Origin: Natrinema mahii
GTDB taxonomy: Archaea; Halobacteriota; Halobacteria; Halobacteriales; Natrialbaceae
NCBI GenBank assembly: GCA_000690595.2
Contig: JHUT02000018.1
Location: 1 to 35,899, forward strand
Reading direction: 5' to 3'
Length of the DNA stretch: 35,899 bases
Every line of letters begins with the position of its first letter. Position 1 is the first letter of the stretch. The notes under the pieces are model-generated. The model saw only the letters and a list, made by a program, of their open reading frames with translations. It was not told the origin of the DNA and did no database searches. Positions 1-2,402 of this stretch are shown here, piece by piece. The position numbers were made by a program, and so were the translations under genes.

Positions 1-193
1 GTTCTAATGGTTACTATAGTCCAATTACAGTTACCTGACCAACATCAAATACGAGAAGCAGGAATATAGTAGCTAATAAACCACCACCCACCTTTGGAGT
101 AGAAGGGAATTTCCCAAGCGTAGCCATTTATAAATCAATTACCGCTGATAACCATTAATGATGGTACATCAATCAGTGACCACTGAAAAATGC
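1..193. other. AT-rich intergenic flank of the foreign region
   Basis: No credible reading frame is visible. The composition is clearly AT-rich, like the gene that follows and unlike the GC-rich sequence after about 1550, so it is probably part of the same acquired segment. The window edge cuts whatever lies to the left. Confidence 0.6.
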
Positions 194-1441
194 TCAATCT
201 TTAGAATAGAGCCCTCGATCTTTCATCCATTCTATCAATCTATGACCGTTCATCTCACGATTGTTTGGCCCTACGCGGATATAGAATCTGGAACCCACTG
301 AGTAGGGTTGTTCAATTGCTTTGGGAACAACAATACACACAACCCATTCCCCGTCATATTCTTTCCTGAATGTATTACCATTTAAATCAGGCGGAAAGTT
401 CCCACTTACAATATCAGAGACCCATTCTTCCACCTTTTGTGGTTCTGAAACCCCTATCGTCATACCACTATCAGAAACCCCAATAATTATCAGCCCACCA
501 TCCTGATTAGCAAGAGCACAAAACTCCTTTTTCAAATCTCTCTTGTCATTTACATCGTGAACTTCTAACTTTGCCTTCAGCTCCGTAGTTTCTTCCTCCC
601 CATGATGAATCCGGTCAGAAAGCTCGTCAGTTGAAAGAACTTGACTTTCAGAATTCAGCGTGAAATTTGCATGTGGTACTTGTGACTTTGAAAGATAATG
701 TGCCCCAATTAGATATGTCTCAAGCTCTCTCCTTTTTGAAAAGCTTTCTAAATCTATTATTGAATAGCTGATCAAGCAATCATCATCTGCTTTACTCATT
801 ATCTCGCCCATTCGTTGGTCTATGTTTTTAGTAACTGTAATATCTGTGATATTATCGTCGTCTTTCCATGTGAGAACAACTCCGCTTTCTTGGGGATAAC
901 TGTAACTAAGCCCAAAATCCTGTGTTTTTTTGTATGGTCCTTTCCAATCCATTCCCAACCAATTTTCCGAGTCCACCTTTGCTAAATCATCCCAGTTAAG
1001 GGTAAATGGATCTTCTTGGAGAGTTTCACTGTTATACCTGCTAAAATTTGCAGTAGGCGTCTGCCCAGTAGCTACTTTATATAGAGAGATATGTGCCGCA
1101 GCTATAGCCCTGATTTCTTCTTTCCTCATTTCTGGATCAAAGCTAATCCAAGATACTAAAAAATGGCCGCGAATATTAGCGTCGATCTCCCAAAGGCGTG
1201 GCGCAGCAAAATGCGGTTCCTTGTCTGGCTTCTCTGTTTTCTTTAGTTCGTATCCTAGTCGTTTCACTCTCCGCTCGAGGTCGCTATGGCTGTGTCCAAT
1301 ATAATGAATACCACTCAAATGAGAGTGGAATATCCTATAGATACCCGGTCTGGAAGGGATCACATCAAAGTTCGATGAAGGCAATACAGGCCTGGGATCT
1401 GACCAGTCAGAAATATTAGTAGGTCTCGAGTTGGGGTCCAT
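194..1441 (-). CDS. GIY-YIG nuclease-like / degenerate second GIY-YIG / AlbA_2 fusion protein
   Basis: The 415-residue protein has three parts. Residues 31-135 look like a GIY-YIG endonuclease domain: GIY at 33-35, YIG at 47-49, an Arg pair at 57-58, a Glu near 109 and an Asn at 132. Residues 185-262 repeat that layout in decayed form: GVV at 187-189 replaces GIY, ITV at 201-203 replaces YIG, and HANF at 257-260 matches TANF at 130-133. Residues 282-400 resemble the Schlafen AlbA_2 domain, with an ELKAKLE-type start, ALANQDGGLIIIGV at 309-322 and an FYIRVG end. The gene is AT-rich and ends in no operon. Nuclease activity of the first domain is inferred from motif retention. A role in mobile-element maintenance or defence is possible but unproven. 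Confidence 0.72.
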   Translation of the reverse strand: MDPNSRPTNISDWSDPRPVLPSSNFDVIPSRPGIYRIFHSHLSGIHYIGHSHSDLERRVKRLGYELKKTEKPDKEPHFAAPRLWEIDANIRGHFLVSWISFDPEMRKEEIRAIAAAHISLYKVATGQTPTANFSRYNSETLQEDPFTLNWDDLAKVDSENWLGMDWKGPYKKTQDFGLSYSYPQESGVVLTWKDDDNITDITVTKNIDQRMGEIMSKADDDCLISYSIIDLESFSKRRELETYLIGAHYLSKSQVPHANFTLNSESQVLSTDELSDRIHHGEEETTELKAKLEVHDVNDKRDLKKEFCALANQDGGLIIIGVSDSGMTIGVSEPQKVEEWVSDIVSGNFPPDLNGNTFRKEYDGEWVVCIVVPKAIEQPYSVGSRFYIRVGPNNREMNGHRLIEWMKDRGLYSKD

Positions 1442-1548
1442 GGAAGTGAGCGTTTTTACACAACAATTATTGAAGTTCTTTCTGGTAACTCATGCAGGTG
1501 AGGATGTGATTTCTGGTCTGCCGCAGTAGAGCGGTGTATTTTGATGAT

Positions 1549-1662
1549 GTGGCCTTAGCCACACCCCTAACGGGGAACCCGACGGCCCCCGTCGTGGTTC
1601 CCCGTCAGGTGTGGCCGGGGCTCGTCCCCGGCCACCCCGCGGCGCGCGCCGGTCGGAGACCG
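1549..1662. repeat. cluster of four back-to-back hairpins
   Basis: Four inverted repeats follow one another. At 1549-1562 a 5-bp stem encloses ctta. At 1561-1612 a long, nearly perfect hairpin has an ACGGGGAACC/GGTTCCCCGT stem topped by CGACGG-ccc-CCGTCG. At 1611-1635 a perfect 10-bp stem (GTGGCCGGGG) has a 5-base loop. At 1650-1662 CGGTC-gga-GACCG forms a 5-bp stem. They lie downstream of the minus-strand gene at 1736-2242 and upstream of the AT-rich gene at 194-1441, at the composition break. They could terminate transcription or be a replication or recombination structure of the element. Confidence 0.75.
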
Positions 1663-1735
1663 ATCCGGGGCTTTTACACGCTAAAAACGACGAAATAAGG
1701 GTGTTAGAATAGTGTTGCCACTGGCCGACCGCCCG

Positions 1736-2242
1736 CTACAGCCAGCGCCAAGCCGCGCTCTTTCCGCGCTCGCCGAGGTCGACCTGTGCCGACCGGAACC
1801 GAGCCGGGTCCTTCCCGGCTTCCGTCCACAGCCGGTACGCCTCTTTCAATCGCTTCTCGACGTTCTCGACGCCCTGCAGTCGAAACATGACACGGGCCTC
1901 TTGTCGGTCGTCAACGTCAACCCCGTGCTTCGCACACCAGGCCACCAGCGCGCTCGTCGTCTCGTCGATCCCGCGCTCGGCGGCTTCGATCGCCTTCGCT
2001 CCGGCCTCGACGGCCCGACGGGTCGCGTCGCGAGCCTCCTGTACGGCGTCGTGGACCATCTCGGCGACGTGATTCGATCGAAGCGAAACGGACCCGTATT
2101 CGGACTCGACTAACTCAGGGATCCGTTTCAGTGCCCGTCGCACGCTATCGACGTGACGATCGTGTTCCGCGGCGATCTCCCGAGGCGACACCTGTCCCCC
2201 GTCGGTGACCAGCGTCTCGAGGGCGTCCCACTCAACAGGCAA
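1736..2242 (-). CDS. HTH-like C-terminal fragment of a provirus/plasmid-type haloarchaeal protein, probably truncated
   Basis: About 168 residues. The N-terminal part reads as a winged-helix-like unit (EWDALETLVTDGGQVSPREI, then a segment with HVDSVRRALKRI), followed by an Ala/Glu-rich helical stretch and a C-terminal region ending WRWL. The only usable start is a TTG at 2242. The frame stays open upstream (reading ...APSAVSDRL) as far as I followed it, to the edge of the tRNA-Arg gene, with no ATG or GTG start. This suggests the remaining C-terminal end of a larger gene cut off next to the tRNA. From memory it resembles C-terminal parts of haloarchaeal virus and plasmid proteins; I cannot name the family with certainty. 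It could alternatively be an intact small gene with a TTG start. Confidence 0.55.
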   Translation of the reverse strand: MPVEWDALETLVTDGGQVSPREIAAEHDRHVDSVRRALKRIPELVESEYGSVSLRSNHVAEMVHDAVQEARDATRRAVEAGAKAIEAAERGIDETTSALVAWCAKHGVDVDDRQEARVMFRLQGVENVEKRLKEAYRLWTEAGKDPARFRSAQVDLGERGKSAAWRWL

Positions 2243-2327
2243 GAGCCTGTCCGAAACGGCCGAAGGCGCAACTCTCGAGCCGTCTACTGACGAATAAGTA
2301 TTCGTCCCAAAACGCGAGGAAACCGAG

Positions 2328-2402
2328 TGGGCGCTGCAGGATTTGAACCCGCGGCAGCTTGGTCCGAAGCCAAGTACTCTGTCCAGGCTGAGCTAAGCGC
2401 CC
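2328..2402 (-). tRNA. tRNA-Arg (anticodon TCG)
   Basis: The minus strand folds as a complete cloverleaf. It has a 7-bp acceptor stem (GGGCGCT/AGCGCCC) with discriminator A, a D arm starting at GCTC, anticodon stem CTTGG/CCAAG with loop CTTCGGA (anticodon TCG), a 5-base variable loop, and T arm GCGGG-TTCAAAT-CCTGC. No CCA is encoded and no intron is visible. The 3' end points toward the foreign segment at 1-2327, the usual orientation for an integration site. Confidence 0.95.

Follow-up and report, generated by a model that had tools for sequence, protein, structure and literature searches.

What can a haloarchaeal protein do that carries two GIY-YIG domains and, behind them, an AlbA_2 domain of the Schlafen type, and which of these parts, if any, would do the cutting? 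The question is raised by a gene at the extreme end of a 35,899-base contig (contig C15 of the haloarchaeal source genome G000), and by the window we mean this stretch at its whole length. An earlier note on this DNA had read the locus as an active GIY-YIG domain joined to a dead copy and an AlbA_2 domain, possibly a defence effector carried by a mobile element. The open reading frame is real, and the gene and the domains of its product, P0001, are laid out as follows.

194..1441, minus strand: gene for the GIY-YIG / GIY-YIG / AlbA_2 protein P0001, open from ATG at 1441 to the stop at 194, 415 codons, with relatives of the same architecture (L002-L006)
1034..1414, minus strand: first GIY-YIG domain, residues 10-136, with GIY33-35, YIG47-49, Arg58, His77 and Asn132 present and the presumed catalytic Glu absent
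659..1000, minus strand: second GIY-YIG domain, residues 148-261, with both Tyr and His214 gone and Arg210 and Glu241 present
248..598, minus strand: SLFN_AlbA_2 domain, residues 282-398, PF04326 at E 3.8e-20, with a Schlafen fold match

P0001 by itself gives little away about its N-terminal part: the Pfam GIY-YIG model had no match even at E 10, AlbA_2 was the sole match in scans against Pfam, NCBIfam and PADLOC, the PADLOC candidate-defence model PDC-S14 included, and phmmer against the PDB returned chance-level matches only. The tandem emerges from relatives and from structure. Haloarchaeal two-domain proteins of about 295 aa, which align to residues 10-136 and 148-261 of P0001, match PF01541 above the cut-off in two stretches, and PDC-S14 is matched by 22 of the 38 aligned family members (two-domain relatives). 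An AlphaFold model of P0001 built from 38 sequences has a pLDDT mostly above 90 over residues 31-125 and 150-260 and shows the GIY-YIG topology twice, as E-E-H-H-E-H for copy 1 and as E-E-H-E-H for copy 2; by this model and by the VIA structural matches, the beta-beta-alpha-beta-alpha fold is present in both repeats. Solved GIY-YIG enzymes were the top structural matches for both halves of the tandem: residues 9-135 matched T4 EndoII (Z 8.6) and I-TevI (Z 8.3), residues 161-272 matched UvrC (Z 7.4) together with the GIY-YIG-like N-domain of a plant glutaredoxin (Z 9.6), and Eco29kI was also among the solved structures matched by the GIY-YIG part. With the relatives' PF01541 matches, the confident model and the structural matches in agreement, the tandem GIY-YIG that the earlier note had proposed is no chance reading.

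The state of the two catalytic sites was read against two sets of two-domain relatives (n=36 and n=67), the larger of which covers many bacterial phyla as well as haloarchaea and methanogens. In these relatives, copy 1 has the Tyr of GIY, the Tyr of YIG, the Arg and the His in 67/67 each, and column 114 is Glu in 36/36 and 66/67. P0001 departs from them at this column.

1100..1102, minus strand: codon of Ala114, in a column that is Glu in 66/67 two-domain relatives

Across the six AlbA_2 fusions the column reads A, A, W, W, K and K, and Glu in none. Column 114 is taken as the probable catalytic Glu from its conservation, its position in the helix and the order of motifs rather than from a residue-level superposition; when solved GIY-YIG structures were searched by profile, the alignment covered just the N-terminal portion of the fold and stopped short of the Glu helix. 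The Glu109 that had been counted as the catalytic glutamate aligns five residues upstream and is a different residue, while GIY33-35, YIG47-49, Arg58 and Asn132 are in place as the earlier note had listed them. Arg110, present in 65/67 relatives, is replaced by Ile in P0001. Tyr35 of GIY, Arg58, His77 and Asn132 are retained in 6/6 fusions, and Y47/G49 are lost as well in two of them (L003 and L004). Copy 2, active-looking in the relatives (Tyr, Tyr, Arg and Glu in 62-65/67), reads GVV in P0001 and carries Y189V, Y200D, G202T and H214I at positions more than 90% conserved, so that it keeps Arg210 and Glu241 without either tyrosine or the YIG glycine; it is degenerate at several catalytic positions in all six fusions, just as had been claimed for P0001. 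On sequence grounds, neither GIY-YIG site of P0001 is complete. Two of the structural matches are titled T4 EndoII E118A mutant and Eco29kI inactive variant E142Q, and copy 1 of P0001 looks like a natural counterpart of this inactivating change; by its likeness to these Glu mutants, it would bind without cutting.

Two readings in which the tandem still cuts have to be weighed against these losses. One, that of the earlier note, makes copy 1 an active GIY-YIG nuclease, copy 2 its structural partner and AlbA_2 a recognition or regulatory domain; the intact GIY, YIG, Arg58, His77 and Asn132 of P0001 and the degeneracy of copy 2 agree with it, and an active-plus-dead arrangement seems indeed to exist in another branch, where three relatives of about 508 aa (L027, L028 and L029) begin with some 230 additional residues at the N-terminus; their first repeat retains its Glu and seems active, and their second has lost Tyr, YIG and Glu. 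Against it stand the Glu column, the further loss of Y47/G49 in L003 and L004, and the finding that mutations of active-site residues abolish the endonuclease activity of the GIY-YIG enzyme CMoRE (PMC12923530). Since the catalytic Glu column is without Glu in P0001 and all six fusions, AlbA_2 is improbable as the regulator of a GIY-YIG nuclease; the active copy 1 was rejected on this column, and the "active plus dead" pairing does not hold for P0001. The other reading assembles one GIY-YIG centre across the pseudo-dimer, from the Tyr and Arg of copy 1 and Glu241 of copy 2. The losses in P0001 are complementary in just this manner, copy 1 lacking only the Glu (and Arg110) and copy 2 keeping Arg210 and Glu241; however, in half of the six fusions Glu241 has given way to Gln or Ala, and these three are without Glu114 too. 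Because Glu241 is not kept across the fusions, the composite site was set aside as very improbable, and known GIY-YIG centres lie inside a single domain.

Attention then turns to the AlbA_2 domain, whose fusion to the tandem is confirmed by PF04326 at full model coverage. The profile of the six fusion AlbA_2 domains matches rat and human Schlafens in the PDB at E 6.4e-9 to 1e-5, the best being 5yd0 (6.4e-9), SLFN12 (8e-9) and SLFN11 (2e-8), and Glu-x4-Glu-x-Lys and the Asp of GVxD are aligned between the two groups.

581..598, minus strand: Glu282-x4-Glu287, Schlafen-type triad residues 1 and 2, then Lys289; invariant in 6/6 fusions and aligned to the Schlafen E-x4-E
470..472, minus strand: Asp324, Schlafen-type triad residue 3; Asp in 5/6 fusions (Asn in L003) and aligned to GVDD of 5yd0

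P0001 has a single AlbA_2 in its 415 aa, whereas SLFN13-N is built of two lobes as a pseudo-dimer, and this two-lobed N-domain of the Schlafen nuclease core is absent. Glu282, Glu287 and Asp324 align to the catalytic triad of the human tRNase Schlafen13, in which tRNA cleavage requires E205/E210/D248 (PMC5862951). When residues are counted from Glu210 along 5yd0, the second D of GVDD becomes Asp248, and glutamates fall at 221, 229 and 249, which are the control positions of the SLFN13 study (PMC5862951). The full-length model was poor over AlbA_2 and gave no usable domain arrangement there. Folded alone (pLDDT 79), the domain resembles SLFN13/14/11/5 at Z 9-10, and Foldseek adds the SAMD9 tRNase domain to its matches. 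Proteins with a single Schlafen domain can be catalytic in assemblies, for example in the worm PUCH complex (PMC10567574). Glu-x4-Glu-Lys is general in AlbA_2 and occurs also in 2kyy, a protein without known nuclease activity; the triad, widespread as it is among AlbA_2 proteins, therefore permits catalysis and does not prove it. Its retention, read from the alignments, nevertheless points to a division of labour opposite to that of an active GIY-YIG nuclease with a regulatory AlbA_2.

The class-wide sample yielded six AlbA_2 fusions, all of them intact, and families f1, f3 and f4 (125, 146 and 170 genomes) contained only those six. They form one clade with 100/100 support inside the haloarchaeal two-domain radiation: the fusion has a single haloarchaeal origin, and all the residue losses could thus stem from one ancestral event. 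The closest pair, L005 and L006, is 84% identical and yet belongs to different families, so that transfer is probable. Between these two, with P0001 outside the pair, dN/dS is 0.12 for copy 1, 0.10 for copy 2 and 0.10 for AlbA_2, which means that, in this pair at least, the cutting-dead domains are maintained and constrained like AlbA_2. Searching genome contigs with P0001 as the single query gave no match; viral contigs held no relative with a full alignment, only a few generic AlbA_2 proteins, and the phage collection gave weak AlbA_2-only matches and nothing more. As a side observation, a two-domain GIY-YIG protein on a Rhizobium sp. S152 contig (L052) groups within the haloarchaeal sequences, by contamination or recent transfer.

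What carries the gene can be read from its surroundings, where the first 1.5 kb of the contig have a GC content of 39-44%, compared with 58-74% elsewhere.

1736..2242, minus strand: C-terminal piece of a betapleolipovirus Rep-Arvir protein, comprising its wHTH part, 55% identical over 157 aa to HGPV1 ORF14
1531..1700, no strand assigned: hairpin array homologous to the sequence downstream of betapleolipovirus rep, fold z -6.5
2327..2402, minus strand: tRNA-Arg (tcg), the likely integration target flanking the provirus relic
1..20, no strand assigned: contig end shared, inverted, with contig C2 (20 bases), where the assembly breaks at an insertion sequence within the provirus

The hairpin array lies between the rep fragment and the P0001 gene and is common to HGPV1, HHPV3, HHPV4, HRPV9 and Harhisp1; its counterpart in SNJ2, again downstream of rep, is likely to serve as the replication origin (PMC13107129). 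The betapleolipovirus-like order of rep and then a conserved origin hairpin is thus found here, with a rep fragment and the hairpins. Contig C2 starts with a two-ORF transposase (IS630-type by inspection; L170 1-1050), followed by a pair of small ORFs and, oriented as expected, disrupted homologues of HHPV3 ORF7 and ORF6. With rep and the hairpins on one side and the ORF7/ORF6 homologues on C2, the P0001 gene lies between the rep-origin and ORF7 of a decayed betapleolipovirus-like provirus, in which the N-terminus of rep is missing, ORF6 and ORF7 are fragmentary, an insertion sequence has entered and the full structural set was not found. Elsewhere in G000 there are three further long Rep-Arvir genes (C1:877697-879238, C3:326223-327755 and C13:20600-22132), so several pleolipovirus-like elements coexist with the relic.

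Corresponding slots of other elements, all AT-rich and running from the rep/origin hairpin to ORF7, were located at the following positions beside that of the window.

L148, 10873-11956: rep/origin hairpin-ORF7 slot
L149, 2885-5100: the same slot
L150, 1985-3458: the same slot
L151, 2099-3806: the same slot
L152, 9200-12608: the same slot
L153, 1846-6935: the same slot
L154, 1684-3252: the same slot
P0001 contig, 194-1530: the same slot

In a genome of another family (G137), a fusion about 30% identical is located in this slot too, next to rep and to that hairpin. For other members of the genus, the slot has 37-49% GC and holds an HNH protein, a restriction enzyme of the GmrSD kind (PF03235 at 5e-28, PF07510 at 4e-11), an AAA_15/OLD-TOPRIM protein like GajA/Old, and unknowns; coiled-coil membrane proteins are also among its contents in betapleolipovirus-like proviruses. 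It is possible that the rep-origin/ORF7 slot is a defence hotspot. In the regions read around four fusions no provirus was traced, and two of these four adjoin defence-type genes; the fusions in G335 and G086 adjoin Cas4-helicase (MkoA-like), DpdJ/DpdK-like or mad8/HerA-like genes. Beside the P0001 gene, no BREX core gene was recognised. The surroundings look like those typical of accessory defence genes, which is context and not a functional test. Carriage by a mobile element, here a provirus relic whose slot elsewhere holds restriction-type genes, thus supports the earlier idea of an element-borne defence effector, but with the roles exchanged, for it is AlbA_2, and not GIY-YIG, that we propose as the effector.

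Two neighbouring loci may be recorded in their own right. A Cas4-like plus SF1 helicase protein of 1534-1581 aa with an MkoA-like C-terminus is encoded upstream of the fusion, on the same strand, in two haloarchaeal families (L126 14716-19458 and L127 10969-15570), with 87% DNA identity between the two genes; it is possibly a partner, or part of a defence island that moved together with the fusion. Near the fusion in G168, on the opposite strand, an HNH protein (L125 6782-8203) has a weak SRA-like match (type IV restriction-like).

Two other explanations for the gene were weighed. It could be a passenger left over from a dead provirus and now functionless, as the broken state of the element might lead one to expect; but the 415-codon frame is intact while the neighbouring viral genes are broken, the six diverged fusions are all intact, and dN/dS is about 0.1 in the closest pair, all of which makes decay quite doubtful. 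Rather less doubtful, although still unlikely, is a protein that binds and never cuts, in which neither GIY-YIG nor AlbA_2 is catalytic and the whole serves as a DNA/RNA-binding regulator, e.g., a provirus repressor or a superinfection-immunity factor. The location in a provirus is in keeping with such a role, many prokaryotic proteins, pAgo fusions among them, have their AlbA_2 annotated as a DNA-binding domain (PMC6299218), and the AlbA_2 of SAMD9 has been crystallised with DNA (7ksp). Against this, the Schlafen triad is retained in 5/6 fusions despite long divergence, and a provirus repressor would not explain the four fusions without a traced provirus, two of them adjoining defence-type genes.

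The scenario that we prefer, in which the dead GIY-YIG tandem is the recognition module, AlbA_2 the RNase effector and the whole a provirus-borne defence, is put forward tentatively, as slightly short of an even chance. It is built upon the domains, the residue losses, the conservation of the triad, the single origin of the fusion, the selection in one pair and the provirus slot, from which we infer GIY-YIG binding, RNA cleavage by AlbA_2, the triggering of one by the other and an antiviral purpose. The ancestor would have been a common prokaryotic two-domain GIY-YIG nuclease with both repeats active-looking, to which, in one haloarchaeal lineage, a Schlafen-type AlbA_2 was presumably joined at the C-terminus, the residues essential for cleavage being lost in both repeats. 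The GIY-YIG pair may have persisted as a pre-dimerised nucleic-acid-binding module, its first repeat retaining the Tyr/Arg/His/Asn pocket without the putative glutamate, like the inactive Glu mutants of EndoII and Eco29kI used in crystallography. Catalysis would likely fall to AlbA_2, with Glu282, Glu287 and Asp324; as a Schlafen-type RNase, it would probably cleave tRNA or some other RNA when the GIY-YIG module encounters nucleic acid of foreign origin. The fusion, an accessory gene on a pleolipovirus-like provirus, would most likely shield its host against rival viruses or plasmids, and in this way the provirus as well. The wider notion, a single-protein immunity in which a disarmed restriction-type tandem nuclease acts as sensor, its two dead GIY-YIG domains licensing RNA cleavage by AlbA_2, and which spreads among archaea in the origin-side cargo slot of proviruses, is held with clearly less assurance, as a possibility only.

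Such a scenario deserves attention on several counts. Schlafens act against viruses in animals, and work is still under way to establish what triggers the prokaryotic proteins with a Schlafen domain; in this fusion, encoded by one small gene, both a would-be sensor (the dead pair of nucleases with its pocket kept) and an effector can be recognised, which makes it a test case. Here the loss of catalysis in a duplicated nuclease accompanies the gain of a new effector domain, and a search for more archaeal defence genes could usefully begin in the slot next to the rep origin.

Among known systems, the two-domain GIY-YIG proteins of about 295 aa from haloarchaea and bacteria, partly PDC-S14, have the same two repeats in the same order at about 30% identity and appear to be the ancestral scaffold of the fusion; they have complete-looking catalytic residues in both repeats and no AlbA_2, unlike P0001, which has no PDC-S14 score. 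With the Schlafens (the SLFN11/13/14 core and the SAMD9 tRNase domain), P0001 has in common the AlbA_2 fold and the Glu-x4-Glu ... Asp triad, but it is single-lobed, archaeal and fused to GIY-YIG, without helicase or SAM parts. Prokaryotic Schlafen defence genes are described, as bioRxiv 10.1101/2025.07.24.666596 is cited in PMC12839542, as minimal histidine-kinase/wHTH fusions near BREX; by that account a Schlafen-type RNase is proposed as their effector, as for P0001 (PMC12839542), whereas the putative sensor is a kinase or wHTH there and a dead GIY-YIG tandem here. CMoRE / PD-T4-3, a GIY-YIG type IV restriction enzyme (PMC12923530), is like P0001 a single-gene system with the GIY-YIG fold and a second domain (structural match Z 7.1); it differs in having one GIY-YIG, which cuts while the other domain senses, where P0001 has two, and its GIYxY-YIG motif is not found in P0001, which reads GIYRI with no third Tyr. 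The betapleolipoviruses HGPV1, HHPV3, HHPV4 and SNJ2 share the rep C-terminus and the origin hairpins in the same order as around P0001, but the provirus here is truncated and has the fusion gene as cargo. A literature search, with most subscription papers and bioRxiv outside it, found no paper containing both "GIY-YIG" and "Schlafen" and no description of the rep-origin/ORF7 provirus slot. The parts of P0001 are of known kinds; what is new is the combination of GIY-YIG with AlbA_2 and the proposed inversion of their roles.
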